Part shown: positions 3,083 to 43,994 of the stretch, piece by piece
Layout: each line of letters starts with the position of its first letter
Numbering within the stretch: the stretch's first letter is position 1
Virus record (IMG/VR): IMGVR_UViG_3300024255_000031
Span: 1 to 58,615 of that record
DNA from: a virus
Reading direction: 5' to 3' (one strand)
DNA length: 58,615 nt
Position numbers and translations under genes: made by a program
The notes under the pieces: generated by a model
The model's database searches: none
What the model was told of the DNA's origin: nothing
What the model saw: only the letters and a program-made list of their open reading frames with translations

Positions 3083-6000
3083 GTGGCACAAGTAGGTAGA
3101 ATATCCGGTCCTTTATTACAAGCTAATCTAGAACGTAATGGTATAGATTTAGCATTTCGTAATGACTTAAACACTTCACAACTAATATATTTAGACGTAA
3201 TTAACGGCAAAATTGCTATTAATCACAATGCACCATCAGCAGAACTAGACGTATTAGGCACTATTCAAACTACAAACTTAATATCGGACTTTTCTAATAT
3301 TGCAGGTTACACTGTTACTGATTCGACATTAAGTACGATTGGTAATTTGAATCTAAATGCTGCAACAGCTATTGTATTTACTACATTAGAAAATGGAACT
3401 ATTCGTATTAATGATAATATTGTTAGTACAATAGAATCAAATGCAGACATTGACATAACTCCTAATGGAACTGGTACTACTGAAGTACTAAAAGATCTAA
3501 ATGTTTTCGGAGACATGTACACTCCGGGAAATATTACATTTGACGGTACTATTACATTAGGTGATGCTGATACTGATAACGTAACATTTGAAAGCGATAT
3601 TAGTAGTGATATTATTCCTGACTCAAATAATACGTATGATTTAGGATCTGAAAGTAAACGCTGGGAAACACTTTATACTAATCTTCTAAATGGTCGTGCA
3701 GCTGAAGTAGACGGATATACACTAAACGGAGTAGATTTACTTACACGCCACGGCGGCATAATTTACGTTGCCCAAGAAGGTAATGACGCAAACAGCGGCG
3801 ATCACATCCTTGATCCGTTAGCAACTATTTCTGAAGCACTTTCACGTGCAGATGCAAGTGGTGAACAACCTTTTACAATTTTAGTTGCAGCTGGCGAATA
3901 TCAAGAAGCACTGCCATTAGTTGTTCCTGCTAATGTTAGTGTTATAGGACAAGACATTCGTAACACAGTAATTACACCAGATACAAGTAGTCAAAGTGCA
4001 GACGTTTTTCACCTAAACGATAAAACTACTATTGCAAACTTAACAATTAAGAATCACTACTATGATAGTGTAAACAATACAGGTTACGCTTTCCGCTTTG
4101 CACCTAACGCTGTAATGAGCGAACGCTCGCCATATATTCAAAATGTAACTGTTTTAACACAAGAAACTGCACTCGGAACAGGAGATGCAGGACGCGGTGC
4201 CTGGATCGACGGCGACGAGCTAAACGCAGCAACAGTTAATAAAACAATGTTGTTCCATAGTTGTACATTTATATCACCTGGTGCTGATGTAATTAATATG
4301 ACAAACAATGTTAGAGTAGAATGGCTCAACTCGTTTACATATTATGCTAATAGAGGATTGTATGCTTTTGCAGGCACAGGCGGAGGTGCAGAACTGCGCT
4401 CAATTGGTTCAGCTAACGTATACGGTAACTACGGCGCTGTAGCAGACGGTGCTGATACATTAATGTATCTAATACAACATAACTTTGGATATATTGGTGC
4501 AGGAAACAAAAACGATAATAATGAAGCTGATGTAATACAAGCAAATGAAGTTGTTGAACTTAATTCAGGCCAAATACACTTTGTAAGTACAGACCAAAAA
4601 GGTAACTTTAGAGTAGGCGATAATTTCTTTGTAGATCTAGAAACAGGAAATTCTAGTATTAGTATTGATACTGCCGACATTGACAGTTTAAGTGGTTTAA
4701 ATATTACTAGCCCAGGCGGCACTACTGTAATAGCAGGATCTAATATACAAACTGGAAATATTATTATTACAGGTAATAATATTAGCACACCTGTAGGAGA
4801 TCTAAATCTTGAAGGTGCTACTAATACTATTAATATTACTAGTGGCACTAATGTATTTGGTAACTTGGATATACGAGACGATTTTAGTTTCGGAGGCACA
4901 CTAACAGTTGCAGGGAATCAGCCAGGCAGAAACACCGATTCCGATACACTTACTTTTAATGTAGACTTAGAACAAGACTTTAAGCCACACGTTACACTAA
5001 CACATAGTTTAGGTGAAGCAGTACGTCCCTGGCTAAATGTTAATCTAGATCGTGCAGAAATTGATGACATTATAATTGACGAAAATTATATTACTACTGA
5101 TATTTCAAATGCAAACTTAGATTTGCGTTCAACAAACAGAATATATGTTCCAAACAATAATTTACAAATTGATAACAATCTAACAGTCGACGGCACAATT
5201 AACATACAAGGTACTGATTTGTCAGGTACAATTAATTATGTAGGCGACAGAACACAAACTGGTAATTATAGTATTTTTGGTGAGATTTCAAATGGCACTA
5301 TAGAAATTGAAGACAATTTCATTCATACAACTGATTCAAATGCAGATTTAGAATTACGTGCAAGCGGCACAGGTGAAGTATTAATATCAGATAGTATTCA
5401 AATAGACAATAATTTAACAGTTAGTACTCTAACAGATTTACAAGATACTATAATTACTGGAACACTAACACATACTAGCAATAGAGTTCAGACAGGTGAC
5501 TATACTCTCGCTAATTATAATATCGACGGCAACATTGACATTAGTAGTCAAGCACAGTTTGAGGAAATTTTGTTTGATGGTAATTTTATTACTACAACTA
5601 CATCTAACACAGATTTAGAACTTATTGCAAACGGAACTGGCAGAATTTTAGTTCCAACTGAAAATGTACAAGTTAATAACAATCTAAGTGCAGATAATAT
5701 TTTTAACAATAACAATGTTAATATTACTCTACAAACAGAATTTGTAAGTGCTGACGTTGGTGATTTTGATATTGTTGGCAACTATATTTCTACAAATAAT
5801 AGCAATACAGATTTAGAATTACGTGCAAGCGGCACAGGCAATGTTAACGTAGAAGACAGTACATTACTGAATCAAAATTTAACTGTTAATAAAAAAACAT
5901 TTTTACAAAACGGAACTACAACATATGAATATGGTCCTGAATTAGTTGTTAACGGAACTTTTGATACAAACGTTAATGGATGGGCTCAAGCAGGCGGCGG

Positions 6001-8299
6001 TAGTGCTAATGATGTAAACGGTAATTTACAAATTAACTCTACAGGAGCTGCAAGAAACGTATCACAAGAAATTACTGTTGTTGCAGGCAAAGCATATGAC
6101 TTTGAAGCACAGTTTAGAAGTGTATCAAATGGAAATCCATTTTATTTAAGAATATTTGAATCAGGAGTAGGTACACTTCAAGAATGGAACGAAACAAGTG
6201 GCTTAACAGCAGATCAACTTTTAACTTATAGTTTTGTACCACAAAGTACAGAAATTGATATTATTTTCCGTTCAGTTGATAACATTGTTGAATGGGACAA
6301 TGTTAGTATGTTTGAAGACATTGGGCTTGTTACAGAATTTACTCCAGTTCAGGTTAATATAACCGGAACAAACACACAAACTGGTAATACTGTACAAACT
6401 GGTAATATTACTCAAACTGGTAATATTAATGCTATTGGTAACTTAACTGTAAGCAACGAGTTTACAAAAAGTAACATTAATATTAACGAAAATATAATTC
6501 AAAATACTGGTGAAGGATTAAGAACTGCAAGAGAGCCAAACGATCCTAATAGTATTCCTGCAATTGTTCAAGCAATTGCAGCAGGATCTACAGCTGACGA
6601 TTATGCAAGTCAAACAGAAAAGAATTTAATTAACTTTTTAGTAGACAATGATTATGCAGACATTAACAACAACGGTTCGGTTACTACTAGTGATTACCTT
6701 GCATATCTTCAATACATTGCAAATGGCACTTCTGGTAATGCAGGAATTGATATTAAAATTGCATCAATATTAGAAGAAATGATAATATTAGAGAATGCAA
6801 CTCCTGGATATTTTAATAACATTATTTTTGACGGCGACTATTTTAATCCGAATCTAGAACTAAGGGCAGCCGGAACAGGCAATGTTGTCTTTTCAAATCC
6901 GACTGTAAATATTGCAAACAACTTGTTAGTATCGGATACGTTATTTGCAGACACTATTGTTGCACCAAGCAATGCTGCCATTTCATCAACTAACTTTACA
7001 ACATCTAATACTACAACCTTAGATGACAACTTTATCTCTACAATAATATCAAATGCAAATTTAGAATTACGTGCTTTTGAAGACAACCTGGTGTATGTTC
7101 CTAGTGCGAACGTTACAGTTGATAACAACTTAACAGTAAGTAGAATAACTGACATTGACGACACAACTATTGTAGGCAATATTACACAAACTGGTAATAG
7201 AACACAACTAGGTAACATAAGTGTTACAGGTAACGTTACAGTTAGTACTTCGAATATTCAAGATGATTTGCAGTTAGATGACATATTAATTGATAGAAAT
7301 ATTATTGAATCGCAAGACAGTAATGCTAATTTAGAACTATCGGCACAAGGTGCAGGAGCAATTGAAGTTCCTGGTAATAATGTTCAAGTTGATACAAACT
7401 TAAACGTTAGCGATATTATTGCACCTAACATTAATATTAATAATAATTTTAGTTTTGAAGACTTTGAGTTAAGTTCTAATATTACAATTTTTGATAATGT
7501 AATAACCACAACAGATTCTAACTCAAACTTAGAATTAAGAACTATAGATAACAGTAATATAGAATTACAAAATATATTAGTTAATAGCAATTCTATTAGT
7601 ACTAGCATAGCAGATATTAATATTGCTTCTAATAGTTTAGTAAACATAGATTCGTCTAACGCAGTTAAAATTCCAGTAGGCGACACTGCCCAAAGACAAG
7701 TAGTTAATAACAGTATACGCTTTAATACAACTAGCAACGTTTTTGAAGGCTACAACGATAACAGTAACATTGTCTCCTTTAATGGTGTTTATTCAAGTAA
7801 CAGACGCACAAATGTTTTAGCAAACAGTGATTCGATTGAATTTACAAATACCAATATTATTACAGGCGAAGTTAATAATCTAGGTCTTAGCATCCACGGT
7901 CTAGAAGTTGACGATATAAAAATACAAACTAATAATATTCTAGCTACTACTTTAAACTCAGACATAGATCTACGAACTAACGGCAATGGCAATTTAGTAA
8001 TAGACGACATTGAAATTGCAGGAAATACAATAATAAACAATAGCAACGGCGCCTTAATTATTAGGAATACGCAATATGGTAATACAAAATTTATTGGTCC
8101 TGCTGTAAAAATTCCAAGTGGTTCTACAGCAGATCAGCCAGTTGCTCCGGAAGTTGGCACTGCACGATGGAACACAGACGAAGTAGTTCTTGAAGTTTGG
8201 GATGGTAGTACATTTACAACAGCAGCTGGATCGACAGCAACTATTAACCAAGCAGAGATGGACGATCTCATCTTAGAATACACTCTAATCTTTGGGTAA
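3083..8299 (+). CDS. Giant modular fibre/adhesin, 1738 aa, with beta-helix, galactose-binding-like and dockerin-like modules
   Basis: The GTG start is set by GAGGAG at 3070-3075 and by the N-terminus MAQVGRISGPLL, which matches MAVGRISGPLL in the next giant. Domains in order: N-terminal fibre head (1-220); a right-handed beta-helix of the pectate-lyase type beginning IIYVAQEGNDANSGD (about 226-475); the shared TDQKGNFRVGD module near 503; then about ten copies of the L-E-L-R-A-x-G-T-G / N-N-L-T-V element to the C-terminus. Two inserted modules stand out. Residues 950-1081 look like a CBM4/9-type galactose-binding fold (ELVVNGTFD, G-W, ending EWDNVSMFED). Residues 1191-1215 carry one dockerin/EF-hand-like calcium loop (DINNNGSVTTSDYLAYLQYI). 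The C-terminal WNTDEVVLEVWDG element is shared with other fibres here. It probably forms an extended trimeric fibre or baseplate adhesin that binds host polysaccharide. Confidence 0.92.
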   Translation: MAQVGRISGPLLQANLERNGIDLAFRNDLNTSQLIYLDVINGKIAINHNAPSAELDVLGTIQTTNLISDFSNIAGYTVTDSTLSTIGNLNLNAATAIVFTTLENGTIRINDNIVSTIESNADIDITPNGTGTTEVLKDLNVFGDMYTPGNITFDGTITLGDADTDNVTFESDISSDIIPDSNNTYDLGSESKRWETLYTNLLNGRAAEVDGYTLNGVDLLTRHGGIIYVAQEGNDANSGDHILDPLATISEALSRADASGEQPFTILVAAGEYQEALPLVVPANVSVIGQDIRNTVITPDTSSQSADVFHLNDKTTIANLTIKNHYYDSVNNTGYAFRFAPNAVMSERSPYIQNVTVLTQETALGTGDAGRGAWIDGDELNAATVNKTMLFHSCTFISPGADVINMTNNVRVEWLNSFTYYANRGLYAFAGTGGGAELRSIGSANVYGNYGAVADGADTLMYLIQHNFGYIGAGNKNDNNEADVIQANEVVELNSGQIHFVSTDQKGNFRVGDNFFVDLETGNSSISIDTADIDSLSGLNITSPGGTTVIAGSNIQTGNIIITGNNISTPVGDLNLEGATNTINITSGTNVFGNLDIRDDFSFGGTLTVAGNQPGRNTDSDTLTFNVDLEQDFKPHVTLTHSLGEAVRPWLNVNLDRAEIDDIIIDENYITTDISNANLDLRSTNRIYVPNNNLQIDNNLTVDGTINIQGTDLSGTINYVGDRTQTGNYSIFGEISNGTIEIEDNFIHTTDSNADLELRASGTGEVLISDSIQIDNNLTVSTLTDLQDTIITGTLTHTSNRVQTGDYTLANYNIDGNIDISSQAQFEEILFDGNFITTTTSNTDLELIANGTGRILVPTENVQVNNNLSADNIFNNNNVNITLQTEFVSADVGDFDIVGNYISTNNSNTDLELRASGTGNVNVEDSTLLNQNLTVNKKTFLQNGTTTYEYGPELVVNGTFDTNVNGWAQAGGGSANDVNGNLQINSTGAARNVSQEITVVAGKAYDFEAQFRSVSNGNPFYLRIFESGVGTLQEWNETSGLTADQLLTYSFVPQSTEIDIIFRSVDNIVEWDNVSMFEDIGLVTEFTPVQVNITGTNTQTGNTVQTGNITQTGNINAIGNLTVSNEFTKSNININENIIQNTGEGLRTAREPNDPNSIPAIVQAIAAGSTADDYASQTEKNLINFLVDNDYADINNNGSVTTSDYLAYLQYIANGTSGNAGIDIKIASILEEMIILENATPGYFNNIIFDGDYFNPNLELRAAGTGNVVFSNPTVNIANNLLVSDTLFADTIVAPSNAAISSTNFTTSNTTTLDDNFISTIISNANLELRAFEDNLVYVPSANVTVDNNLTVSRITDIDDTTIVGNITQTGNRTQLGNISVTGNVTVSTSNIQDDLQLDDILIDRNIIESQDSNANLELSAQGAGAIEVPGNNVQVDTNLNVSDIIAPNININNNFSFEDFELSSNITIFDNVITTTDSNSNLELRTIDNSNIELQNILVNSNSISTSIADINIASNSLVNIDSSNAVKIPVGDTAQRQVVNNSIRFNTTSNVFEGYNDNSNIVSFNGVYSSNRRTNVLANSDSIEFTNTNIITGEVNNLGLSIHGLEVDDIKIQTNNILATTLNSDIDLRTNGNGNLVIDDIEIAGNTIINNSNGALIIRNTQYGNTKFIGPAVKIPSGSTADQPVAPEVGTARWNTDEVVLEVWDGSTFTTAAGSTATINQAEMDDLILEYTLIFG

Positions 8300-8452: not shown

Positions 8453-11400
8453 ATGGCTGTTGGTCGCATATCAGGTCCACTCTTAAAGTCAAATCTCATT
8501 CGTAATGGGATTGATTTGGCTTTTGAGACGGATCTCTTATATTTAGATGTTAATAATCAGCGTGTCGGCATCCAAACCGCAACGCCTCAATACGAGCTAG
8601 ATGTTTCCGGAAATACAAGAACTACAAATTTAATTGTTACTGATAGAGCAGATCTAGCAGATATTACTGTTGAAGGTAATACTATCAGTACTACGCAACC
8701 ATTCCTTAATTTAGCAACACTAGACACTGTTGTAGCACTTAACAAAATTAGAATTGACAGCATTGACATTGAAGGCAATGCTATTACAACAAACGATTCA
8801 AATGCTAACTTAGAATTACGTCCAAACGGAACTGGCGCAGTAAACGTACACAGCGACCTAAATGTTGACGGAAATATTTACGCAAGCGGTAATATTACAG
8901 CAGACGGTAATATTACAATTGGTGATGCAGACACTGACAACGTCATTTTTAATGCTGATGTTTCTTCTAACATTATTCCAGACGTAGACGATGTATACGC
9001 ACTTGGTAGTGACCCGGAAGCAGGCGGTAAACAGTGGAACGATGTATGGGTTAATAATTTACGTGCATCAAGTCTTGTTGTTAGTGATAGTCTAGATGTA
9101 GGTAATATTGACTTTACACTAACACATGGTAACACATATTATGTTGCTGAAAACGGCGATGACACGCATGTAGGCGATCACTTTTTTGATCCTTTCGCAA
9201 GTGTTAAACATGCTCTAAGTGTAGCAGTTGCCGGCGACACCATTCTTATTAGTCCAGGTGTATACACTGAAGAATTTCCACTAACTGTTCCTGCAGGAGT
9301 TACAGTTAGAGGCGAAGGTATTCGTGCTGTAACAATCGAACCAACAGTTGCAACAAACACAAATGATGCATTTTTACTCGATGGCGAAACAACTGTTGAA
9401 GAATTAACAATTACAGGTTTTTACAGCCCGGGTTATGCATTTAAGTATGCAACAGGTTATACAGCAACAAGTCGTTCACCATACATTAGAAACGTTACAG
9501 TAATTACTGAAGGCAGTGTAACAAGTCCAACAGATCCAAGAGGATTTAACGAAGGTGATGCAGGTAGCGGTGTTTTCTTAGACGGTTCTGTAGCATCAAG
9601 CAGCTCAGTAAATACTGCATTACTATTTCACTCAGTAACATTTATTACTCCGGGTGTTGACGCAGTAGTGCTAACTAACGGTGCAAGGGTTGAATGGCTA
9701 AACAGCTTTACATACTTTGCAAACCGTTCTATGTATGCATATGACGGAACAACAGGACGCAGAGGAACAGGTAAAACTAAGCTAACACTAAGTGGTATTA
9801 CAGGAACCTTTACACAAGGTAATACATTAACTATCACTAGTGCTGATGCTTCTACAGTGCTTACAGGCACCATTGATAGTGTAGATGGCAGTGATGTTTA
9901 TGTAAGTAATTACTTAGACTTAGATGGATTTGATTTAACACCACAAAGCATTACAGACGGCACTGCTACAGCAACAACTATTGATAGTTTTGACTTACGT
10001 GACTTTGGTGCAGAAGTGCGTTTGATTGCAAGTGCAAGTGTATACGGTAACTTTGGTTTAGTAGGTCAAGGTCCTGGCGTTATTATGTACGCTATTGGAC
10101 ACAATTTAGCATACATTGGTAACGGTAAAGAAGTAACTAACGATCCAAATACTGTTATTCAAGCAAACGAAATTGTTGAAACTGAAAGTGCAAAAATTCG
10201 TTACAACTCAGTAGACCATAAAGGCGACTTCCGTATAGGCGATTTGTTCTACGTTAATCAAGAAACAGGTAACGTACAATTTGCTGTAAGTGACTTTGAA
10301 ATTAATACAGAAAACGGTGTTACATTTAATACTAATGGTGATACTACATTTATCGACGGCACAAAAGTTGAAACTGGTGATTGGCGCTTTAGCGGAAACA
10401 CAGTTGAAACGCTTACACAAGATGCTAACTTCGCAGGCGGCAGCGGCACAGTTAACTTAAACTCAGACGTTAATGTAACTGGTAGTTTAGATGTAACAGG
10501 TAATGTTACTATTGGCGGCAATGTTACAATTGGTGATGAAGCAACTGATACTATTCAAATTGTTGCAGGAATTGATTCAGATATCAACCCTAAAGATGCA
10601 AGTACTTATTCACTAGGTACAAGTTCTAAAACTTGGAAGAATTTGTTTGTTGATACTATTAACTTAGATAACATTACAATCACTGACAACTATATTGCAA
10701 CTACACAATCAAACAGTGATTTAGAATTGCGTGCTAATGGTACTGGTGAAATTTATGTTTCGAGCAACAATGTACAGATTGATAACAATTTAACTGTAAG
10801 CGGTGTAACAACACTAGCAAACACAAATATTACAGGAACAATTGCACACGTTGGAGATTATGTACAAACTGGAAATTACACAATTGCAGGTACAATTAGC
10901 AACGGTGATATTCAAATTGCTGGTAACGTAATTGAAACTACTACATCTAATAGTGACTTAGAGCTACGTGCTAATGGCACTGGTGAAATTTATGTTCCTA
11001 CTAATGATGTACAAGTTGACAACAATCTAACTGTAAGCGGTGTTACTGATTTACAGAATACAAATATTACAGGAACAATTACACACGTTGGAGATGCTGT
11101 ACAAACTGGCGACACAAGCATTACCGGTAATGTAACAGTAACACAGGATTTAGATGTTACTGGTACAGCACAGTTTGAAGAAATCTTAGTCGACGACAAT
11201 TATATTACTACAACTACATCAAACGCAGACTTGGAACTACGTGCTACTGGCACTGGCGAAATTCTAATTCCAAATAATGATGTACAAATTGTTAACGATT
11301 TAACAGTTGACAACGATATTAACGCAAATAACTTAACAACTCCTGGATTAATTACAGCTAACAGTTTTACAACTGGTGACATTGTTATTGATGACAATTT

Positions 11401-13174
11401 CATTCAAACAACACAATCAAATAGCAATTTAGAATTACGTGCTAACGGCACAGGTGTAGTATATATTCCTAGCAATAATGTTGTAATTGACGAAGACTTA
11501 ACTGTTGCAGGATCTACAAGTTTACAAGATGTAGCCATTCAAGGCACACTAACACAAGTTGGTAATACAACACAAACTGGTAATATTAATTTAACTGGCG
11601 ACTTTGGCATTACAGGTAATATTACAGTTTCGAGTACAGCGCAGTTTGAAGATATTAAAATTGAAGATAACTTTATTACTACTACCGAATCAAACAGCGA
11701 CTTAGATTTACGTGCTACAGAGTACGGTGTTATATCTATTCCAAATAACGATGTACAAATTAATAACAACTTAAATGTTGTAGGTACAACTACAGTAAAT
11801 AATTTAATCGTTAACGAAACTGTAACATCAAACACATACACAACAGGCGATTTATTACTAGATGACAACTTCATTACAACAACACAAAGTAATTCAAACT
11901 TAGAATTGCGTGCTAATGGTGTTGGTGAAGTTTACGTACCAACAAACGATGTTGTAATTGAACAAAACTTAACAGTTAACGGTAGCACAACATTAAAAGA
12001 TACTAACATTGTTGGTAATATTACACATACTGGCGATGTAACACAAGTAGGTGATATTACACTGACAGGGAACTTAGATGTTGACGGCGATGTAATTATT
12101 AGTGCAACTGTTGTTCAGTTTGAAGATATTCAAGTTAGTGGTAACAAAATTACTACTTCGCTGTCTGATTCAAATCTAGAACTTCGTGCTAACGGATTAG
12201 GTAAAATTTACGTTCCGTCTAATGATGTTGTAATTGAACAAAATTTAACAGTTAACGGAACAATTACAGTTAATAATATCACTAGCACTGGAACAATTTC
12301 GGCAAACAGTTTCACAACTGGCGATATCTTAATAGATGATAATTTTATCACAACAACAACTAGTAACAGTGATTTAGAATTGCGTGCTAATGGCACCGGT
12401 AATATTATTGTTGATGAGTTTAGTATTAATAACAACACTATTACTAGCCAAAATGACTTTGTTATTCAGCCAGGCAGTGGAATTTTAAACATTACTGCTA
12501 CAGGAGCATTAAAACTTCCAACAGGCACAACATTAGATCGCCCGACTGCTGTTGCAGGACAAATTCGTTACAATACAGATTTATCACGCTTTGAAGGGTA
12601 CAACGGAACTAACTGGATTAACTTAAAGGGCGTAGAAGATCTAGACGGAGATACTAAAGTAACTGCTGAATTATCAGAAGGATCTAATGACGGAGTAATA
12701 CGCTTCGACGTACAAGGATCGACTGTTGTTACAATAAATGGTACAGCCCTTACAGCACCTAGGGCTGATGTAGGCAATATTCGTATCGACAACAACGTTA
12801 TTGAAACTACAACAGCAGACACCGATTTAAATCTAAGAGCAAATGGAACAGGAAGTGTTAAGTTTGATAACTTTGCATTCAGCGAAAACACAATAACTAA
12901 CACAGTTACTGACAGCGTAACAGTTTTTCAAAATACAGGTGACGGATATGTTAAATTTGACGGACCTTATGGTATTGTGTTACCGTCAGGCGGCACAGGA
13001 TCTAGACCGCCATTTGGACTTACTGAAATAGGTCAGACAAGATATAATACTGACGACGAACGTGTAGAAATTTGGGACGGGTCAAACTGGGTTTCAGTTG
13101 CTGGAGCAGCATCAGGCATTACACGAAGTGACGCAGAAGAAATTGCACTATCAACAGTGCTAGTATTAGGATAA
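8453..13174 (+). CDS. Giant modular fibre/adhesin, 1573 aa, paralogue of the preceding giant
   Basis: A paralogue of the 1738-residue protein. It has the same head (MAVGRISGPLLKSNLIRNG), the same order of parts and the same C-terminal R-Y-N-T / V-E-I-W-D-G element. A right-handed beta-helix starts at about residue 228 (TYYVAENGDDTHVGD, then a PGVYTEEFPLTVPAGV rung) and runs to about 555, with an inserted segment near 440-510 (LSGITGTFTQGNTLTI onwards). The VDHKGDFRIGDLFYVNQETG module follows at about 586. The rest (about 650-1500) is a regular array of fibre repeats, each with an L-E-L-R-A-N-G-T-G element, a V-P-x-N-[DN]-V strand and N-L-T-V-[SN]-G. It lacks the galactose-binding and dockerin-like inserts of its neighbour. 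AGGAG precedes the ATG. It is likely a trimeric repetitive fibre; duplication within the cluster explains the similarity. Confidence 0.92.
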   Translation: MAVGRISGPLLKSNLIRNGIDLAFETDLLYLDVNNQRVGIQTATPQYELDVSGNTRTTNLIVTDRADLADITVEGNTISTTQPFLNLATLDTVVALNKIRIDSIDIEGNAITTNDSNANLELRPNGTGAVNVHSDLNVDGNIYASGNITADGNITIGDADTDNVIFNADVSSNIIPDVDDVYALGSDPEAGGKQWNDVWVNNLRASSLVVSDSLDVGNIDFTLTHGNTYYVAENGDDTHVGDHFFDPFASVKHALSVAVAGDTILISPGVYTEEFPLTVPAGVTVRGEGIRAVTIEPTVATNTNDAFLLDGETTVEELTITGFYSPGYAFKYATGYTATSRSPYIRNVTVITEGSVTSPTDPRGFNEGDAGSGVFLDGSVASSSSVNTALLFHSVTFITPGVDAVVLTNGARVEWLNSFTYFANRSMYAYDGTTGRRGTGKTKLTLSGITGTFTQGNTLTITSADASTVLTGTIDSVDGSDVYVSNYLDLDGFDLTPQSITDGTATATTIDSFDLRDFGAEVRLIASASVYGNFGLVGQGPGVIMYAIGHNLAYIGNGKEVTNDPNTVIQANEIVETESAKIRYNSVDHKGDFRIGDLFYVNQETGNVQFAVSDFEINTENGVTFNTNGDTTFIDGTKVETGDWRFSGNTVETLTQDANFAGGSGTVNLNSDVNVTGSLDVTGNVTIGGNVTIGDEATDTIQIVAGIDSDINPKDASTYSLGTSSKTWKNLFVDTINLDNITITDNYIATTQSNSDLELRANGTGEIYVSSNNVQIDNNLTVSGVTTLANTNITGTIAHVGDYVQTGNYTIAGTISNGDIQIAGNVIETTTSNSDLELRANGTGEIYVPTNDVQVDNNLTVSGVTDLQNTNITGTITHVGDAVQTGDTSITGNVTVTQDLDVTGTAQFEEILVDDNYITTTTSNADLELRATGTGEILIPNNDVQIVNDLTVDNDINANNLTTPGLITANSFTTGDIVIDDNFIQTTQSNSNLELRANGTGVVYIPSNNVVIDEDLTVAGSTSLQDVAIQGTLTQVGNTTQTGNINLTGDFGITGNITVSSTAQFEDIKIEDNFITTTESNSDLDLRATEYGVISIPNNDVQINNNLNVVGTTTVNNLIVNETVTSNTYTTGDLLLDDNFITTTQSNSNLELRANGVGEVYVPTNDVVIEQNLTVNGSTTLKDTNIVGNITHTGDVTQVGDITLTGNLDVDGDVIISATVVQFEDIQVSGNKITTSLSDSNLELRANGLGKIYVPSNDVVIEQNLTVNGTITVNNITSTGTISANSFTTGDILIDDNFITTTTSNSDLELRANGTGNIIVDEFSINNNTITSQNDFVIQPGSGILNITATGALKLPTGTTLDRPTAVAGQIRYNTDLSRFEGYNGTNWINLKGVEDLDGDTKVTAELSEGSNDGVIRFDVQGSTVVTINGTALTAPRADVGNIRIDNNVIETTTADTDLNLRANGTGSVKFDNFAFSENTITNTVTDSVTVFQNTGDGYVKFDGPYGIVLPSGGTGSRPPFGLTEIGQTRYNTDDERVEIWDGSNWVSVAGAASGITRSDAEEIALSTVLVLG
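10680..12420 (+). repeat. Tandem coding repeats in the 1573-aa fibre
   Basis: About eight successive units, each roughly 200-250 bases, encode D-D-N-[FY]-I-[QT]-T-T, then N-S-[DN]-L-E-L-R-A-N-G-x-G, then V-P-[TS]-N-[DN]-V, then N-L-T-V-x-G. Some units are close to identical at the DNA level, for example those around 10,720-10,810 and 10,960-11,050. The array is continuous with the reading frame and is a protein repeat, not a CRISPR. Confidence 0.85.
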
Positions 13175-13994: not shown

Positions 13995-16900
13995 ATGTCA
14001 GAATTTAAAATTAGTAGATTGCGCTTTAGCTGGGCAGGCCCATGGAGAGATCAAACTTTCTTCAACAAAGACGAAATTATTCAGTTTAACGGTAAAGCGT
14101 ATGTTTGCTTAATCCCCCATACATCAAATAATTTTTATAACGATTTAGGTGCAGCAGAACCTAGATGGGAATTGATGATGACTGGCCAAACATGGAAAGG
14201 CCCATGGGAACCGTTAACACAGTATGCATTAGATAACATTGTAATTTTTGGTGGTATTGTGTACAAATGTAACGAACAACACCTTAGCGGAGCAGTGCTT
14301 GATTTAGATATTGACAAGTGGGACGTTTATGCGGAGTCTAAAACTTGGGCAAGTGAATGGACATCAAGTACTACATACGGTGTAGGTAGCATTGTGAACT
14401 ACGGCGGCTCTGTTTACGAATGTATTGTATCACACGTATCAGCTGCTACTGACTTAGAAGGGTTAGAAGCAGATTACACAGATGTAGAAGACAGTACAGA
14501 AAAATATTGGAAATTATTACAATACGGTGTATCTTGGAGAGGCGTGTATGCTACTGACTCAGAAGATAGCAGTCAGCTTCGTTATAAACTAAATGACATT
14601 GTAAAATACGGACCAAGTTTGTACCGTTGTATTTGGGGTCATGCTCCAAGTGCTGAATTTGTAGACTTTGCAGACAGTACAGAGTTATACGAAACATTTA
14701 TTAGTGAATATTGGGAAGAATGGCTACCTGGTTTAGACTTTGACGGCGTATACGATGCTAATGCAATTTACCAACCAGGCGATGTTGTACAGTACGGTGG
14801 ATACTTATTCCAATCTAAAGTTATTAACAATATCGGAAATACTCCGTCAACAAATTACGGCGATGATTCTACCGATGCTTGGGAACTAATTACAGAAGCA
14901 TATGAAATTTCAGGACAATGGTCAACTGATAACGAATATAAAGTAGGTAATGTAGTCAGATACGGTGGCGACTTATATGTTGCACTTATTGACAGCATTA
15001 GCGAAAATCCTGGTAACTTTACAGTACAAGCACCGTATGAAGCAGAAGATTCAAGCGGTACACGTATACAAATTAACTTAGGCGATTCAGTTGCATCAGA
15101 TTTAATTACAGTTGGTATGACTGTTACTGGCGAAGGATTTAGTAGAGGTCAGACTGTTGAGTCAGTTAGCTATGACGATGACTCAACTAATGCAACAATG
15201 TATGCTACAATTATTCTTAACGAAGCACCAGACGGTCCTATTTCAGATGAAGCAGTATTAACGTTCTCAGGTGCAAGAACTGGAATTTGGGAACTATTAA
15301 TTCCTGGATTCAATTGGGAAGGACAATGGAGCGAAAGTACACTTTATAACCTCGATGATATAATTTATTGGAAAAATGCAACATATAAGTGTGTTTTAGA
15401 ACATACATCGTCTCTAGTATCTAGACCAGATAATGATTTACAAAATGCATATTGGGTAATCTATTTACAACACGATCAAAGAAACAGTTTAAACTCTTTT
15501 GGGCAAACAATTGTGTTTGACGGCGAAAATAATTCCCCTTTAGAAACTGGTGCTGACGGCAACGTTCTTAAAGTTGTTGACGGTCTTCCTACTTGGAGCG
15601 ACATTGACTTTACACCAAACGTGTATTATGTTGCAACAAACGGCGAAGACTTACCAACTAACGGTACTACGCCTGATACAGCATGGAAATCGATTAAGTA
15701 TGCATGTGAGCGTGTTAAGCTAGGCACATTGCGCCAAAATGCAAAACTACTACTTGAGAATAATAAAGATTGGGTTGTTGAGCAAACATTTTATTGGTTC
15801 TTATATCAGCAAAATCAAAATGTTGCTCCATTTGATAGCTCCTACAATTTTGATAATGATAAAACAATACGTGATTCGCAACTAGTTATAGATGCTGTTG
15901 TCCGTGACTTAAAGCGCGGAGGCAACGCACAAACTGTTAGAGCAGCACTATCTTACTTTAACACAGAAAGCACAAATAGATTTACTAATGATACAGTTGC
16001 AGAGCAAGCAGAGTTTTTTGCATCATTCTTTGTTGAATTATTTAATAACATTGAATTGGCACTTACAAATACGGCTCCTGCACAAGACTACCGAATATTA
16101 GAAAATGTTGAAAATCCTATTCCTCAGTACTTTAACAGTGGTTTAGTACTTGAAGATGATGCACTTACATTTACTGGTGCTTTAGAAAATATTTTAGTTC
16201 GTCCATTCTTAGACGGATCGCCTTCAAGCATTCCTCCTGAAAATCAAGGAACTTACTCGACAATTAATATTAAATCAGGTACTTATAACGAACGTCTACC
16301 TATTAAAATGCCACCTAACACTGCACTAAACGGCGACGAACTACGTGGTACAACTGTACAACCTGCTGCGCCAATTAATACATTATGTACAAGAACGTTT
16401 GGATTTATTAATCAATTTGTAGTTGGTTCAACACTTAATATGGAACACAACTCTCCAGTACAGTTTGTATCACTTAATCCAGTTGAAGAAATTAGTACAG
16501 TGATCGGTGATGTGATTCCTGGCAAGACATACTATGTAGTCGGAAGCAGTATTACAGAGACTACAATCAGTGTAGCAGAAGAACTAGACGGCGAAGTAGT
16601 TGCACTAACAACTAACATCGGTGCAATGTATGTATACGGCGGTGAAGCACTTGGAGATATGATTCAAGTAACTAACGACTGCGGTGTACGTAATATGACA
16701 CTTAAAGGGTTACTAGGTACACTATCTGTAGAAAATGAATTTTTAACAAGACGTCCAACAGGTGGTGCATATGTAGGTTTTGATCCAGGCACTGGACCGG
16801 ACGATACTACTACTTGGATTACAGCACGTTCTCCGTATATTCAAAACGTTACTACATTTGGTAAAGGTTGTACTGGTTGTAAAATTGATAGTACAATACA

Positions 16901-21880: not shown

Positions 21881-24800
21881 ATGGCAGAGTTTAAACTAGG
21901 ACGAATTAGGTTTGTATGGCAGGGCAACTGGTCGTCAGACAGGGCATACGTTGCAGATGACGTAATTAGCTTTGGTGGTAAATCATACATTTGTATTAGA
22001 AACCACACATCATCAGATACTTTTAATACTGATTTTGACAACGAAATACCTAAATGGGAAATAGTTTCAGACGGTACTAAATGGAGAGGCGAATGGGAGC
22101 CTGAAGTTGAATATGCACCAGGCGATGTTGTTAAGTACGGTTCACTTGTTTATATTTGTGAAATTGGCCACACATCAGCTACATTTGGAGCACCAGACTT
22201 TTTAGGTCTCGAAGAAGACTTAGGCAACTGGACACCGTTTGCTACATCTTTTGATTGGAAAGGTGATTGGACTACAGACACAAGATTTAAAATTAACGAC
22301 CTAGTGCGTTACGGAGGATTTGTATACCTTTGTAATACTGCTCACATCTCTGCTGCAACTGAAGAATTAGGACTAGAAAACGACCAAAGTAACTGGGAGC
22401 TATTTAGTGACGGTTTAGTTTACTTAGGCGAATGGGTAACTGCTACACGCTATAAAGTTAACGATGTTGTTAAGTATGGCGGCAACGTGTTTATTTGTAC
22501 TGCTCCGCATACATCAAATGACTTCCTAACAGACGAAACAAATTGGGACGTATTTATTGAGGGCTTCCAGTTTGAGGATAGCTGGAATAACTCTAATGTT
22601 TATCAAATTGGCGATACAGTTACATACGGTGGATATGTATATGTTGCTAAAACAAATAACTCTGCTGCTCAACCAACTGCAAGTCCTGCAGATTGGGAAG
22701 TATTTACAACTGGTTTTGCATTCCAAGGCGATTGGAGTTCGATAGATTCATATAAAGTAGGTGATGTTGTACGTGTAGGTGGCACAACTTATGTTGCTGT
22801 TGCTGATAGTACTGATCAAAATCCGCCAAACGATACTTACTGGAGTAAATTAAACTCGGGTATTAACTGGACTAATAGTACAGAAACTTTCTTACAAGTA
22901 CAAGGTACTAATGATGTAAGTTCAGGAAGCGGTGCCCGTTTTGACGTTGTTAAATCTAAAACTGTTTACACTGTAAGCGTATCTACAGGATTTGCTGGTA
23001 CAGGATATGCTCAAGACGATACTATTTTAATCACAGGTGACAATACTGGCGGCACAACTCCTGCTAACGATATTGTTGTAACAATAACAGGTGTTACAGC
23101 TGGCGCAGTTGATTCGGTAACACACACTGGTTATTCTTCAACTTGGACAGCAACTACAGAATATGTTGTCGGTGACGTTGTTATCTACGGTGCAAGTTCA
23201 TTTATTTGTACAGCTACTCACGTAGCACAAACATCAAATCGTCCAGACAACGATCTAGAAGCAGATTACTGGAACTTATTAACACTTGGTAGTGAAGCAC
23301 TTTCTCTTACTACCGAAGGCGACATGGTTTACTATGGTAACCAAGGTCCAACAAGACTTCCGATCGGAGTTGACGGTCAGATTTTGCGTGCTACAGACGG
23401 CAAGCCAGACTGGGCTAACTACGGTCTAGTTGACAACGTTGTATATGTAGGACCACTAGGTACAGACGAACCTGCTCCGCGTTCAGGTCTATCTATTGAT
23501 AAACCTTGGAGAAGTGTACGCTATGCACTAGAGCAAGTACGTGATGGTTACTTGAATCCACAAGCAAAACAAATTTTAAAGAACAACAAGCAGTTCTTTA
23601 AGAAAGAAATTACTTCTTGGTTAGATTATACATACGGTGTAACTGTTACTGAGACAACAGCTGGGTCACGTGTGTTTACAACTTTCGACACTAGCAACTT
23701 AAGAGACGGAATGCCAATTGAGTTCGACGGTGTTAACGTATTTGGCGGAGTTGTTGAAGGACAAACTTATTATGTTGACAGTGTTATAAGCTCGACTACA
23801 TTTAGAATCGCAGAAACACAGGGCGGCATTTCGTTTATTCCAACTGACGCAACTGGTGTTATGAAAGGTAAACTTTCTTACAATGCAGCAAAATGTGAAA
23901 GAGACACAGGCTATATTGTTGATGCAATGATTTATGATATTGGCCGCGGCGGCACATTAAGAACTACCGAAGCAGCTAGATCATATTATACAGAAGCAGG
24001 AAACGAATATATTACTGACGTATTCGGATACCAGCGCACACAAACAATCGAAGCATACGAACAGCTTAAAGCTCTTGTTGCAGAAGTACTAAACAACGAA
24101 AAACCAGTTAGTTATCAATCTCTAATGGGAATTCTAATTGAAGAACGTGCATCACAGTTTATTGACTTGAGTTTAGTATCTGAAAATAATGCAAAGGTAA
24201 AAGCAGACGACCTAATTGATATTGTTACAATTGGCTTAGAAGCAGAATCAAACACAGCAATTCCGTTGCCGCAATTACCTAACACAACAGTATTCATTAA
24301 AACTGGTACATATAACGAAATTCTTCCAATTATTATTCCAGAATATACTGCTATTGTCGGTGACGAATTGCGTACTTCTGTTATACAACCACAGCCTGCA
24401 ATTCCGTTGCTAGCTAAAGACAAAGACAAAACTACTAGCGCACTAAACAGAATCAAAGAAGTATCTGAGCAAGTGATTCAGAATATTACAATTGACGCAA
24501 CTACTGGTAATACTACTCCTCAGAGATACTTAAATGGCTATGGTGGCGCAACTGAATCTACACAGCGTTTAGATATGTCAATTGTTAAAACTCTTAATGT
24601 ATTAGAAAAAGGTGTTGGCGAGGTTGCTCTAGTACCAGAAGTTGGACCAACTCCGACTGGTGGAACAAATAATGCAAGTGATTCAGGATTTGCAAATGCA
24701 ATTGCACAAATTGAAGCTAACATAGACTTTATTGTAGCAGAGCAAACTGCTTGGATACAAGCACAAGTAGACGGCGTAATTGCACCCTTTGCAGCAGACT

Positions 24801-27800
24801 TTACATTTGATACTGCAAACTGCGAAAGAGATACACGCTTCATTCTAAATGCACTACGTTATGATTTAACATACGGCGGCAACTTCCAAACAACTGTAGC
24901 TGCAAGAAGTTACTTTGTAAACGGCAATCCTGTATATGGCACAGGTAAGAAAGAAGAAACTCTTGCAACATATACACATTTAAAATCAATTGTTGGTGAT
25001 GTAATTATTGAAGCAGCAATTACACCAACACCTGCAAATACCGAAGTACAAGATACTGATGGCGATGCAGGTAGTGCGGCAGCAGAAACATTTGCAGATA
25101 CACGCCTCCAAGAAATTTTCGACACAATAGATACTGACGGGACACTACCGACAGCAGTTGCTCCTGATACAACTTGGGTATCTAATTCAATATCATCTAT
25201 TGTTACTGATTTTACTAGCGAAAAGGATACATTAAGAACCTCGGTAATTGATTTTATTAATAGTAATTATGGTAAATTTACTTATGATAGTGCAAAATGT
25301 CGTAGAGATTCTACTATCTTACAAGACGGCTCAGCATACGATGTTGCATTAGGAACAAATTATAATTCTATTCGTAACGGTGTAGCTTATCGAAGAAGTG
25401 CTGGAGAAAAGGTACTAGAAGATCAACTAACTGAAACACTAGGAGCAATTACTGAGCAAAAATCATTAGTTGCAGCTTTAATTAGTGACACAACTGCAAT
25501 TACTAGAAGTGATGCATATTGGGACGAATTACTTGATATTATTGAAAATAATACTCCTAATGCTATAACATGGAGTGACCCAGGTGTTGCGGCAAAAACT
25601 ACTGCACGTTCGGACTTACAAACAAATAGAACAGCTATTATTGCAGATGTAATTTCTTGGATAGGCACAAATTATCCTAACTTCACATACGACCAAACTT
25701 TATTAGAGTTAGAAATGGGATACATGATTGACGCTATATCATATGACGTACAATATGGCGGTAATAGTGCAACACGTGAAGTAACAAGTGCATTCCTTAC
25801 AAACTATATTGGTATATTGCCGAGTAGTCAAATAGAAGTTACTAACGAAGCAATTGACGAAATTACAACAATTGCAGCAACTTATATGACAGGAGCAACT
25901 GAAGAAGCAGAAGTTGCAACACTAGTACAAATTATTTCAAATGCTATTTCAGCAGATGATATAATTGCATTACCAGCAGCAACTTACCCAGATATTACTT
26001 GGGCAACAGCTCCAATTCAAGCAGATACAAATGCAATAATAGATGATACTACTGTTGTTCCTGAAGTAATACAATATATTACAAATACATATAGTGGATT
26101 TGTATACGATCATACTAAATGTTCTCGTGATACTGGTTATATTATAGACGGTTTAGAATACGATATCCTATTTAATTCTAAGTTTAATGGTACAAAATCA
26201 GGAATGGCTTATCGTAGAGCTATTAGCTCTGCAGAAATTGTAATTGAAGAACAACTAGAAGCCACACTAGGTGCTGTTGATCACTTGAGAAGAGAGATTA
26301 GAGATATTACTAGTCGTACTGATAAGATTGTTGCAAGTACTACAACACTCAAAGATATTGTAGTTAATAATAATGTTCCAGTATCTTACACAATTACCGA
26401 TCCTACAGGATACGACACAGGATTCTTTAATGCAAGAAGACTTGTTGTTGCAAACCAGCAGTTTATTTTAGACGAAGCATCTGCATACTTAAACACTAAT
26501 TACAATGCACTGTGGACTGGGTTAACTGTAGATGAACAGAATTCCTGGATTGACGACATTGACGAATTAGTTGAAGCACTACGTTATGATCTAACATATC
26601 GCGGAAACTTAGAAACAACAGTAAGAGCAAGGTCTTACTATGTTGACGGAGTATTTGTACGTCCAGCAAATCAAAAAGCAGCTTCGATTGCACTTAAAGA
26701 AAGACTTGCAGCAATTATCGATGATATAACTACTGGTGTAAGTATTACACCGAGCGCAGGAAATGTTACTGCACAAGTTACAAGCGGAACAGCAGGATCA
26801 GCAGGAGCAGCAGCATTTGCACTTGATCGATTCACAGAAGTTAAAAATACTGTTGATACTGGAATTTTACCAGCTGCAATTGATCCAAACATTACATGGG
26901 TTGATGCAGGACTACAAGAGCTTAAATCAGTTGTTGATGAACGTAAATCACTAATCCAAGCTGGCTCTATTGATTACATTAACAAAATGTATCCGACACT
27001 TGTATATGATGAAACAAAATGTTCTCGAGATGTAGGTTACATGATTGATGCAGTTATATACGATGTAATTTTTAACAGTAACTTCCGTAGCACTACAGCA
27101 GGCAAATCTTATCAAAGAGGTATTACTTCGACTAACGTAGTATTAGCAGATCAGTTAAGTCCGTCAGTTGACACTATTGATTATGTTAATGAAGCACTAA
27201 CTGAACTAACAATTGGTGTAGACACTACAATTGGTCAAGATAATGCAGCACAAGAAGCATACAATTTAGTTAAGGATATGACAACAGTTATCCAAAACGG
27301 TCTAAACAGTGTGCCTCCTATTAAGTTGCTAGCACCAACAGGCTACAATACAAGTGACCTAGTTGACGTAGCATATGCTACTACAACAAACACTACTGGT
27401 GATAGCAGCACTTATGGAAATGCGGCAGATCAATTGTTAGCTAACAGAGACTTTATATCAGACGAACTACAGCAATGGTTAGTTGATCCAACTAACGGGT
27501 TTGACAGCATTTGGGGCGGACTATCGGCTAATGCACAGGAACGTTGTATTCGTGATGCACAGTTTATTGTCGATGCTATTCGTTACGATATAACATACGG
27601 TGGTAACACACAAACTAACGTTGCAGGCGCAGCTTACTTCTCAAACTTTGTACTAACTATTCAAAATAATGAATTGGCAGCAACACTAGCATCATATGCA
27701 AGACTGCGTGAAATCATCGGTCAAATTATTGCTGAAACAAGTGTTACTACAAGCCCAGGAGTAACTGAAACACAAGACACTTCGGGCACAGTTGGCAATG

Positions 27801-30800
27801 CAGCAGCAATTGAATTTGCACAAGAACGTGTAGACGATATTACATACTGGTTAAACAACTCAACGTTTGAAGAAAAAGTAGAAGTTGCAACCGAATGGCA
27901 GTTACAAGAAAGAAAAACAGCATATGCTAGACTTGTAGATCGTAAAGACGAGATTGTCGATGATGTTGTTTACTGGGTAGAGAAAAATCATCAAGATTTA
28001 GAATATAATCAGGCAACTTGCAAAAGAGATGCAGGTTTAATTGTTGACGCTCTTGCACGTGATGTTGTTACAGGTTCTAACTTTGCAACAATTAAAGCAG
28101 GAATGTCGTACTATAGAGCTATTCCGTCAGCACTTAAGACATTAAAGGGCGAATTAAATGCTACTGTTGGTGCTATGAACTTCTTAGCTGAAAAAGCAAG
28201 ACGTGTTGCATTAACTGCACCAAACGAAGCAATCAAGCAACTAGTTACAGATATTACTAGCTACATCGACGGCGGCGCATTACCTACTCCGAAATGGAGA
28301 GATACTAATTTAGAAGACAATCCAGACATTTGCGGCGCTTCTACAATTTGGGAAAACAAGGCATATATTCAAGAAGAAGTTATTGAACACATTACGCAAG
28401 AATTCCCAGAAATTGAATACGACGAAGCTAAATGTCGCAGAGATGTTGGATATATTGTAGATGCATTACGTTATGACTTATCGTTCGGCGGAGAGTACGC
28501 AACATACAAAATGTTCGAATATTATTACTATAATAATTCTGTCCAGCTAGGCGATAACGAATTAGAAGCAACATTAGCAGCATATGATTATGTTAAGTTT
28601 GTTGCAATGAGTCTTGCTATAAATAGCGTAAGCAGTCCTGGAGCATTGCAAACTCGTGTAGAACCTAAATTGAGAGACGAAAGTCAGTTAACAGGTGATG
28701 CAGGAACATTTGCTCGTGTTGAAGAATTAATGACAGCGCTTTATAATAATTTAAGTATTGGCGAGTATATTAACAGAGTTACAGTAACAGATGTTGCTTC
28801 TAACGCTCTTACAACTTCAGAAGTTCATAACTTTACTATAGGTACTGAGTTAATAGTAGATTCAATTAATGGTGAATTAGATACTGGAACATATTATGTT
28901 AAAACTGTTCCTACTAGTACAACGTTTACACTATCTACATTCTTTAATGGTCCTGAAGCAGCGTTGTCAGATGCTACTGGACTTGAAGACATTATCAATG
29001 TAGTTAGAACTCCGGATTTAAGCAACGTAACTGCTAACTTTAAACAGCAATTTACAAACATTCAAGGTTCTAAATCTTTAATACAAGAAAAAGTTACAGA
29101 TTACATTGTTGAAAAATTCCCAACACTGGTTTACAATCAAGCTAAGTGCGAAAGAGATGTAGGTTTAATTATCGACGCAGTTGGCAAAGACATGCTTCTT
29201 GATACTAACTACTTAACTACTATAGCTGCATTATCTTACTACAGAGGTACACAAGCAGACGTAGTAATTAAAGAACAGCGTTTAGCAACTGTACAAGCAT
29301 ATAGAGAACTTAAAAACTTCATTACTACATATGTATCTGGCGAAGGCAGTAGTGTTAACTACGGTGGACGCAACGACAATAGTAGTGTAAAAGTTCGCGT
29401 TAATAACTTAATGAATATTGTTATTAACATAATTGAAAAGGGTGCTAAAGTAACCCCAGAAATGCAAGGCACAGTTACGTACTTCAACGATAGAGAAACT
29501 ATTAATGCAGTAGATGCGTTGAAAGTTAACAAAGACTTCTTAGGCAGCGAAGCAACTGCTTGGATTAAAGCTAACTTTGGTGGAGAAGTAACTGACATAG
29601 TCGGATCTCCAGGTGCATTATCGTTTAGTGCGCCACACAACTTAGAAGTTAATGATCCAGTTGTGTTCTCAGGCACAGTATTTGGGGGCATTGAAGTAGG
29701 AGTTACATACTATGTATCAGCGGTTCCTTCAGCCAATGACATACAATTAACAACAGCACCTGGCGAGGAAAGTATTAACACATTTACCGGCGGCAGCGGA
29801 TCAATGACTGCAAGTTATGCATTTGATGAAACTGCATGTAAACGTGATATGGCATCATACATCGATTCAATTATATACGATTTACAGTATCCAGGCAACT
29901 ACCACTCGCTAAGAGCAGCAAGACTATATGTTAATGCTGTAGAAGGATCGCAGTACAGTGATATGTTCTATGTACGTAATGCAACCGGTGCTCGTAACAT
30001 GACATTTAATGGATTGTTAGGAAACTTGAGCGAGAAGAATCAGTTCGGCACAAGACGTCCGACAGGTGGTGCATATGTGTCACTTGATCCAGGATTTGGA
30101 CCATGGGATACAGAAGCATGGGTAACTAATAAATCATGTTATGTACAAAACGTGTCAACATTTGGTACAGGATGTATTGGTAACAAGATTGATGGTTCTT
30201 TACACGCAGGCGGTAACAGATCTGTTGTTAGTAACGACTTTACGCAAATCCTGTCAGATGGTATTGGTGTATGGTGTAGCGGTAACAACTCACTAACAGA
30301 GCTTGTATCTGTGTTCGCATATTACAACTATGCAGGATACATTGCAGACTTTGGCGGACGTATTCGTGCTACAAATGGTAACTCATCTTATGGTACATTT
30401 GGTGTTATTGCTGAAGGTACAGATTTAGGCGAAGAACCAATTGTTGCAGACGTAGATAACTTGTCACAGAACGCACTGGTATACAGTGTATCAACTGATG
30501 GCGAAGAAGAAGTACTTGCAATGGAATACAGTAATGCTGGTACAGGCTATACTAACGCACAATACGCAATTAGTGGTAACGGATTTAACGCAGCTACAGT
30601 TGGTGACGAATTCCGTGATCAAGCTGTTGTTGAAGCACGCATTATTGATGTAGACGACGGCAATGGCACAGGCGGCGAAGATTATGTAATTGCACAAAAC
30701 GTTGCACAAGGTGGTGACAAAGTATCAATTACACTTGCAGCAACAGACTTTGCACTAGGTGACGCATACAATGGTATGCGAGCACAAGTTACAGCAGGTA

Positions 30801-37375: not shown

Positions 37376-37390
37376 GGAAACAGGCATAAT

Positions 37391-38353: not shown

Positions 38354-38368
38354 GGAAATAAACGTAAT

Positions 38369-41065: not shown

Positions 41066-41072
41066 GATTATT

Positions 41073-42887: not shown

Positions 42888-42891
42888 ATCA

Positions 42892-43401
42892 ATGCATAAT
42901 AAAAGTTCGTTAGACAATTTAGAAACTTGGATAGAAAACTGGATACATCGTTTAAACAGCCGATATATTGATCCTAACGGACAAAAGTGTCCATATGCTA
43001 AGTCTGTATTAGACAACAATCGTTTAAAAATTGTTAAGATGCTAAATGCAGCACCAATCGACTTTTGGTCAAAAATAACTGTTGAGGCAGATAATCTTAA
43101 CGATGATATTGACGTTATTGTTGTTGCTACAGAAGCAAATAAAGAATTGTACGGGCATTATTTTGTTACTAACGGAGGAGTTGATGCTTTAAATTGTGCA
43201 TTTAATGTGCAAAATAAAGATGTTTGGTTATTGTCAGCAACTAATGATTTATACACAGTTGTTTTTATTCAGAGAATAACTGACATAGACGATGCAAGTA
43301 AATCTTTAGAACAAGATACTAATTATTATAACAAAATGACTTCAGAATACTTTGATAGATTTATTTTACAAAGACGAATATTAAGAGAACGTTTGAACTA
43401 G
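42892..43401 (+). CDS. Uncharacterised protein of the sugar operon, 169 aa
   Basis: A 169-residue protein starting 4 bases after the carbamoyltransferase stop without a strong ribosome binding site, so it is likely coupled to that gene. The N-terminal part (LETWIENWIHRLNSRYIDP, then KCPYAKSVLDNNRLKIVKML) vaguely recalls DUF1415-type proteins, which start with a W-x-x-x-x-I segment and a C-P-[FY]-A-K motif. The rest (VIVVATEANKELYGHY, then FVTNGGVDALNCAFNVQNK) does not confirm this. There are single Cys residues at the C-P-Y-A-K site and in LNCAF. No function is proposed; location ties it to sugar transfer or carbamoylation. Confidence 0.8.
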   Translation: MHNKSSLDNLETWIENWIHRLNSRYIDPNGQKCPYAKSVLDNNRLKIVKMLNAAPIDFWSKITVEADNLNDDIDVIVVATEANKELYGHYFVTNGGVDALNCAFNVQNKDVWLLSATNDLYTVVFIQRITDIDDASKSLEQDTNYYNKMTSEYFDRFILQRRILRERLN

Positions 43402-43413
43402 AAGGAATAGGTA

Positions 43414-43983: not shown

Positions 43984-43994
43984 TACTATTTTGA
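43975..43994. terminator. Short dyad at the convergent stop codons
   Basis: TCAAAATA and TATTTTGA are perfect 8-base arms around ATAC, covering both stop codons of the convergent gmhB and cupin genes. It is AT-rich and weak, so it may help end transcription or may only reflect composition. Confidence 0.35.

Follow-up and report, generated by a model that had tools for sequence, protein, structure and literature searches.

The virus record IMGVR_UViG_3300024255_000031 of IMG/VR (58,615 nt, hereafter the window, meaning the whole stretch of DNA that was analysed) encodes a giant tail-fibre protein of 4017 residues, P0001, which is best explained as a fibre whose beta-helix carries a bilin-binding arm of phycobiliprotein domains grown by pairs (rough probability 0.6). 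P0001 would be a structural fibre made up of CBM5/12-like repeats, a pectate-lyase-type beta-helix and the giant arm, where the arm, a chain of phycobiliprotein domains, would leave the helix from between adjacent rungs and come back to it. Judging from its match to a PHROG family annotated as tail fiber protein, it is presumably a virion protein. The known phycobiliproteins are pigments of light-harvesting antennae and, in bacteria, globins that bind bilin. We found no description of phycobiliprotein domains in phage particles in the open-access literature, and earlier notice elsewhere is possible.

A phycobiliprotein-like arm within one beta-helix

An initial annotation of this DNA had placed about 1850 residues with 11 helical modules between two helix segments of P0001, and a module profile (A3, 66 modules) agrees, with 11 consecutive copies in residues 840-2693 (E 4e-18 to 8e-49, values that are flattered because A3 includes some window modules), one module before them, and one in the paralogue P0002 (Table 1). 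Among 200 shuffles of the insert, there were 5 marginal matches at E<=0.01 and nothing comparable. An AlphaFold model of modules 1-7 (24374-27919, 1182 aa, pLDDT 80.3, pTM 0.66) is all-helical, and Foldseek matched it to phycobiliproteins nearly throughout the PDB results (probability about 1.00), although with E-values of 0.2 and above, since a single domain makes up little of the query. With VIA, the same model matched allophycocyanin 9i1r_A at Z 16.5 (2.0 A over 120 residues), which exceeds the caution level of about Z 13 for helical bundles, and the rows listed were essentially all biliproteins. The best VIA rows fell on modules 3 and 5, both of which lack the Cys of the C-x-R-D motif; hence, the fold match is independent of that motif. 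A separate model of a relative (L038, described below) also matched the phycobiliprotein family.

The same relation is visible by sequence, although only with a profile and not with a single sequence. Searched against all PDB sequences, A3 returned 95 matches at E<=10, the best 60 of which were all phycobiliproteins or smURFP (top 3e-5), and the alignment places the module C-x-R-D on the KCARD bilin site of phycobiliproteins. Pfam PF00502 (Phycobilisome) matched 9 of the 66 modules (best 1.5e-7), while no other Pfam family matched more than one of them or beat 0.017; PF00502 also matched a 9-copy relative (L007, 2.3e-4) and five isolate cyanophages (S-CAM1, S-RSM4, S-SM1, S-PM2, and S-SZBM1). 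Single-sequence PDB searches gave nothing meaningful for the P0001 insert and nothing beyond weak chitinase similarity for P0002. The modules are thus almost certainly homologous to phycobiliproteins, that is, bilin-binding globin domains. Helical models often score middling in structure comparison, but the notion of ordinary alpha-helical repeats with a generic helix-bundle resemblance is contradicted by a sequence-only profile search topped by phycobiliproteins only, with the pigment motif aligned, and by the agreement of Pfam and of two independent models, and has next to no probability. A solenoid or other generic helical repeat was also ruled out as a description of the unit, which is a globin-type domain of ~150 residues.

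The modules share with phycocyanin, allophycocyanin, and phycoerythrin (PF00502) the globin-like fold, the ~150-residue domain, the C-x-R-D motif, and a significant profile match. They differ in standing at 10-20% identity to them and in forming a fused head-to-tail chain within a single viral fibre, whereas antenna phycobiliproteins are separate subunits; the chromophore of the phage modules is predicted only. Bilin biosynthesis-associated globins (BBAGs) are likewise non-antenna relatives of phycobiliproteins, some with CXRD, that bind bilin without a lyase; however, they are single-domain cellular proteins of bacteria encoded beside bilin reductase genes, unlike the virion protein arrays considered here (PMC10151467).

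P0001 and P0002 are both real open reading frames (ORFs) and are collinear, as had been noticed, with BLASTP-aligned pieces in order (1-844/1-797, 2365-2890/547-1085, and 3001-4014/1671-2603, P0001/P0002). The T-V-Q-P segment at residue 787 of P0002 has its counterpart in V-I-Q-P at 834 of P0001, and R-N-M-T lies at residue 899 in P0002 and 2705 in P0001. The shorter protein is not the uninterrupted helix it was taken for, as its h1-h2 gap holds a different, beta-rich insert of ~95 residues that is unlike the modules; true empty sites occur in other paralogues. These came from a search of 50 viral loci at first and of about 140 after further scans, with ORFs scanned for h0, h1, h2, and the module. 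Paralogues with both sites empty have an h0-h1 gap of 0-9 residues and an h1-h2 gap of 6-7 residues (e.g., L044, '...ACDFAI-GP-ATIFVKAGVYSEILP...RSTIIEPA-VGYELS-DMFYVNNGCGIRNMTL'), which indicates that the module at site 1 also lies inside the helix. Hence, each of the two proteins does have one module besides any array, but in P0001 it sits between h0 and h1 rather than ahead of the helix, where the initial annotation had put it.

An AlphaFold model of L038 (one site-1 and three site-2 modules, 1070 aa, pLDDT 81.6) matched single right-handed beta-helix enzymes, including pectate lyases; the structures 8jaz (alginate epimerase, Z 16.3, 3.3 A over 208 residues), 7w1d (K1 capsule lyase, Z 16.2), and 2pyh aligned at Z 15-16. 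The alignment spans model residues 13..1004, a range that states just where it starts and stops, and 208 aligned residues between these ends require helix pieces on either side of the inserts. According to these predicted structures, in which the repeats take a phycobiliprotein fold, the segments flanking the P0001 inserts belong, as first proposed, to one beta-helix, which is right-handed and of the pectate-lyase type. No beta-helix family was matched by Pfam in the empty-site helices of other loci or in the window's h2. Pectate-lyase-type tail fibres and tailspikes have the same right-handed beta-helix core, and DUF1565 occurs in a window paralogue, but the P0001 helix differs in having two insertion sites filled by globin-fold domains.

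Beta domains of the 'FGGI..G.TYYV' type are, in turn, nested in helical modules of P0001 (positions approximate), splitting the site-1 module near 23645-23872 and lying within module 11 near 29597-29812, so that the protein contains an insert inside an insert inside a beta-helix. Domains of this type also fill site 2 of P0002.

Table 1. Features of the fibre genes in the window (site-2 motif positions are P0001 residues)
Feature	Coordinates	Strand	Evidence or remark
P0001, giant tail-fibre protein, 4017 aa	21881..33934	+	ORF; PHROG 9851 tail fiber protein, E 9e-173
CBM5/12-like repeats at P0001 N-terminus, 7 matched stretches	21881..23320	+	Pfam PF02839, E 6.5e-33; bounds approximate
Beta-helix segment h0, residues 518-559	23432..23557	+	conserved in empty-site paralogues
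Site-1 insert with a single phycobiliprotein-like module (C-E-R-D, residue 672)	23558..24274	+	profile matches 511-609 and 624-746; empty site in paralogues
Beta-helix segment h1, residues 799-839, ending TSVIQPQP	24275..24397	+	conserved in paralogues
Site-2 insert, residues 840-2693 (1854 residues), leader and 11 modules	24398..29959	+	empty site in paralogues
Module 1, odd, NCERD at 981	24527..25033	+	module profile
Module 2, even, KCRRD at 1140	25052..25510	+	module profile
Module 3, odd, Cys lost (LELE)	25487..25906	+	module profile; among the best VIA allophycocyanin matches, model residues 404-526
Module 4, even, KCSRD at 1414	25877..26338	+	module profile
Module 5, odd, Cys lost (WIDD)	26312..26758	+	module profile; VIA phycoerythrin/phycocyanin beta chains, model residues 655-828
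Module 6, even, KCSRD at 1714	26777..27238	+	module profile
Module 7, odd, RCIRD at 1889	27218..27757	+	module profile
Module 8, even, TCKRD at 2047	27776..28222	+	module profile
Module 9, odd, KCRRD at 2185	28190..28645	+	module profile
Module 10, even, KCERD at 2423	28943..29362	+	module profile
Module 11, last class, ACKRD at 2653	29357..29986	+	module profile; continues directly into helix
Beta-helix segment h2, residues 2694-2846	29960..30418	+	conserved in paralogues; fold from relative's model
P0002, collinear paralogue, 2616 aa	13995..21845	+	ORF; same helix as P0001
P0002 site-1 module, single	15603-16091	+	module profile
Paralogue of 1738 aa, same helix, without module	3083..8299	+	baseplate wedge PHROGs
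Paralogue of 1573 aa, same helix, without module	8453..13174	+	Pfam DUF1565 7.7e-7; Pel9A-like beta helix 0.0014

The putative pigment site and its possible partners

CXRD is a chromophore-binding motif in which the Cys bonds bilin covalently and the other two residues hydrogen-bond it (PMC10151467). Since the members of A3 were chosen for C-x-R-D, invariance of C, R, and D in that set is no evidence. Among 347 modules not selected for the motif, conservation was 83% for Cys, 88% for Arg, and 96% for Asp; the Cys is present in 10 of the 12 modules of P0001. Cysteines of long inserts also sit predominantly in the motif (291/347; 9/10 in the window insert). A conserved C-x-R-D with cysteines confined to it is the pattern that bilin binding would predict and a mere spacer would not, without constituting proof, and at least part of the modules may well bind bilin.

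The most serious alternative, which we regard as distinctly less probable yet worth retaining, is that the modules descend from bilin-binding globins but have lost pigment binding, with the arm acting as a spacer or adhesin scaffold that was extended so as to present receptor-binding parts. Loss of the Cys in some modules would fit this, as would the lack of detected bilin genes in the window lineage and an arm that varies in length while the helix remains constant. Nonetheless, the pigment-site residues Cys, Arg, and Asp rank with the best-conserved positions, whereas most others drift to 20%-35% identity, and nearly all arm cysteines are the motif Cys; a spacer would require none of these residues.

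A module-bearing protein has been recovered from phage particles. All seven modules of cyanophage S-SZBM1 are in its 6619-aa protein, which was identified in purified virions by 71 peptides as 'baseplate wedge initiator' (PMC9146016). This bears on a further alternative, that the modules, though borne by a virion protein, act within the host cell by mimicking phycobilisome components or docking to them (e.g., diverting antenna proteins). Although the modules are related to antenna proteins in fold and sequence, antenna proteins are cytoplasmic, whereas this module protein is in virions. Moreover, psbA, sought as a host marker, was absent from 22 IMG contigs including the window, so that their hosts may not be cyanobacteria. 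We therefore consider such docking very unlikely. The giant short tail fibre/baseplate wedge proteins of S-PM2, S-RSM4, S-SZBM1, and P-HM1 resemble P0001 in having several such modules per protein, but their array and flanks are unlike the site-2 arm, and their likeness to phycobiliproteins is unrecognised in the papers searched.

The bilin-binding reading also draws on the distribution of cpeT. According to the profile, most isolate cyanophages examined have 3-15 modules per genome, always in ORFs of about 2900-7300 aa. As a panel we used the 16 cyanophages of Sullivan et al. 2010 (PMC3037559), which were not chosen for this analysis; 13 have cpeT, 11 by PF06206 here (including Syn1, which is blank in the published table) and P-SSM7 and S-ShM2 by that table. 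Modules were found in 13/13 panel phages with cpeT and in 0/3 without it (P-SSM2, S-SM2, and S-SSM7; Fisher 1/560, p = 0.0018), although p-values of this kind are overstated as the panel phages are related. When phages picked through matches were added, the counts became 24/24 with cpeT versus 0/4 without. In ten cyanophage loci (S-PM2, S-RIM32, S-RSM4, S-H9-1, S-CAM1, Syn1, ACG-2014h, ACG-2014i, S-WAM2, and AG-345-P14), cpeT immediately precedes the gene for the giant module protein, in most cases by no more than 2 kb, while in P-HM1, P-HM2, MED4-213, and S-SCSM2R the modules are located elsewhere. Two large IMG contigs (G005 and G007) carry modules together with a haem oxygenase gene neighbouring a bilin reductase gene, an arrangement similar to that of freshwater cassettes (PMC11480375).

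Several observations weigh against pigment binding. The Cys is missing from 2/12 window modules and about 17% of all modules, and bilin on any module protein is predicted from sequence rather than seen. P-SSM2, S-SSM7, and Mosig have a bilin reductase and no modules, and no module was found in S-CREM2 (OR473000), tested as a further positive, whose group, the Cluster C cyanophages, is reported to carry the S-type bilin lyase cpcV (PMC10665884); bilin genes must, therefore, have other roles too. No haem oxygenase was detected in the window record (a 58-kb fragment) or in near relatives up to 169 kb, and these relatives also yielded no bilin reductase or CpeT. Among large IMG contigs, only the two mentioned above have both haem oxygenase and bilin reductase. 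Finally, the site known to be served by T-type lyases is Cys-153 and not Cys-84 (PMC10452541).

If the modules do bind bilins, Cys-x-Arg-Asp would be where the arm holds linear tetrapyrroles, which either the host or a phage haem oxygenase with a bilin reductase would provide, and CpeT-type proteins of cyanophages might act on phage module proteins instead of, or in addition to, the antennae of the host. What pcyA, pebS, and cpeT do in cyanophages has been termed a mystery or unresolved (PMC3037559), and debate continues on what phage hemO/pcyX/pcyA/alaS cassettes are for, with bilin-binding globins as one option (PMC11480375); bilin-binding modules would give these genes a phage target. More tentatively, and somewhat against the odds, the virions of many T4-like aquatic phages could be pigmented by bilin-loaded module chains in giant fibre and baseplate proteins, with phage cpeT, haem oxygenase, and bilin reductase serving at least partly for them, which would explain why phages carry such bilin genes and might also explain light-dependent adsorption. 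Such adsorption has been reported for several marine cyanomyoviruses (PMC2984593) and would thereby gain a candidate sensor. Most speculatively, a pigmented arm might have an extracellular function such as recognising the host, protecting against light, or making adsorption light-dependent; the last of these roles is, taken alone, improbable on present indications, and we do not expect a module-bearing virion protein to feed a photosystem.

Two further observations concern module genes in related phages. In S-PM2 (L055, 4860-16199), 16 tRNA genes are annotated on the same strand inside the coding sequence of the giant module protein, the ORF of which is open across them for 3792 codons. Three loci also have, downstream of their fibre genes, additional ORFs that hold one to three modules each (L050:24213-25751, L047:31467-32924, and L105:27851-29641), indicating more than one module-bearing protein in these phages.

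Copy number and growth of the arm

Site 2 in the enlarged set of proteins holds 0, 1 (38 proteins), 3 (24), 5 (1), 7 (7), 9 (8), or 11 (12) modules, i.e., an odd count in 90/90 filled arrays, although the arrays are related and do not represent 90 independent events. One apparently even array with four matches (L117) really has three modules, the last being interrupted by a nested beta domain, and array spacings leave room for hidden modules only where such domains sit. A leader of ~100 residues is found even in one-copy proteins. In a tree of 112 modules (71 core columns; support as bootstrap/aLRT), single branches set apart all 19 site-1 modules (100/95), all 19 last modules, including the sole module of one-copy proteins (100/96), and all 37 even modules (100/98), while the odd modules require 3 changes. 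Together with the odd counts, these classes describe the insert as leader + (odd, even)n + last, with n = 0 to 5. Positional matches in the first tree equate positions 5, 7, 8, 10, and 11 of 11-copy arrays with 3, 5, 6, 8, and 9 of 9 and with 1, 3, 4, 6, and 7 of 7, suggesting, from few columns and with moderate support, that pairs were added toward the N-terminal side. The site-2 loop has, hence, very probably grown by duplicating odd-even pairs. The arm would have consisted of the leader and one domain at first, and subsequent duplications of an odd-type with an even-type module would have kept the total odd. Modules of P0001 share only about 22%-36% identity on average, which indicates that the duplications are old. 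Even without pigment, the arm is a clear example of how a globular domain of host type, once inserted into a beta-helix, was multiplied in twos until it reached about 200 kDa.

The initial annotation, which had missed the growth by pairs, the phycobiliprotein identity, and C-x-R-D as the bilin-attachment motif, suggested that the module placed ahead of the helix had been duplicated into it and then amplified. Insertion and amplification stand, and all modules are homologous, but the proposed source does not: site-1 and site-2 modules form separate positional clades, 25 proteins have a site-2 module without any site-1 module, and site 1 itself lies within the helix. A recent derivation of the internal copies from the site-1 module is accordingly rejected, and we give little credence to the copying scenario as a whole.

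Genes surrounding P0001

Four large fibre/baseplate genes follow one another at 3-34 kb of the 58.6-kb window, and genes for a tail sheath and a tail sheath stabilizer are located at 46-55 kb; the virus is a T4-like aquatic myovirus. Both helix proteins upstream of P0002 (3083-13174) fall in PHROGs whose annotation is baseplate wedge subunit, yet their helix is that of the fibres, which suggests that a wedge-type protein gave rise to the fibres via tandem duplication. Next to the fibre genes, on their downstream side, come three tandem paralogues of ~320 aa with a very high Cys and Gly content (36410-39328); a PHROG search with one of them gave no match, and they are possibly tip adhesins. The fibre genes also adjoin a glycan/heptose cassette (40088-46319), with gene names assigned from direct reading of the sequences (carbamoyltransferase, sugar-phosphate phosphatase, epimerase, and bifunctional kinase/nucleotidyltransferase), and a similar cassette adjoins the fibre genes in P-SSM2, S-CAM1, and S-SSM7.

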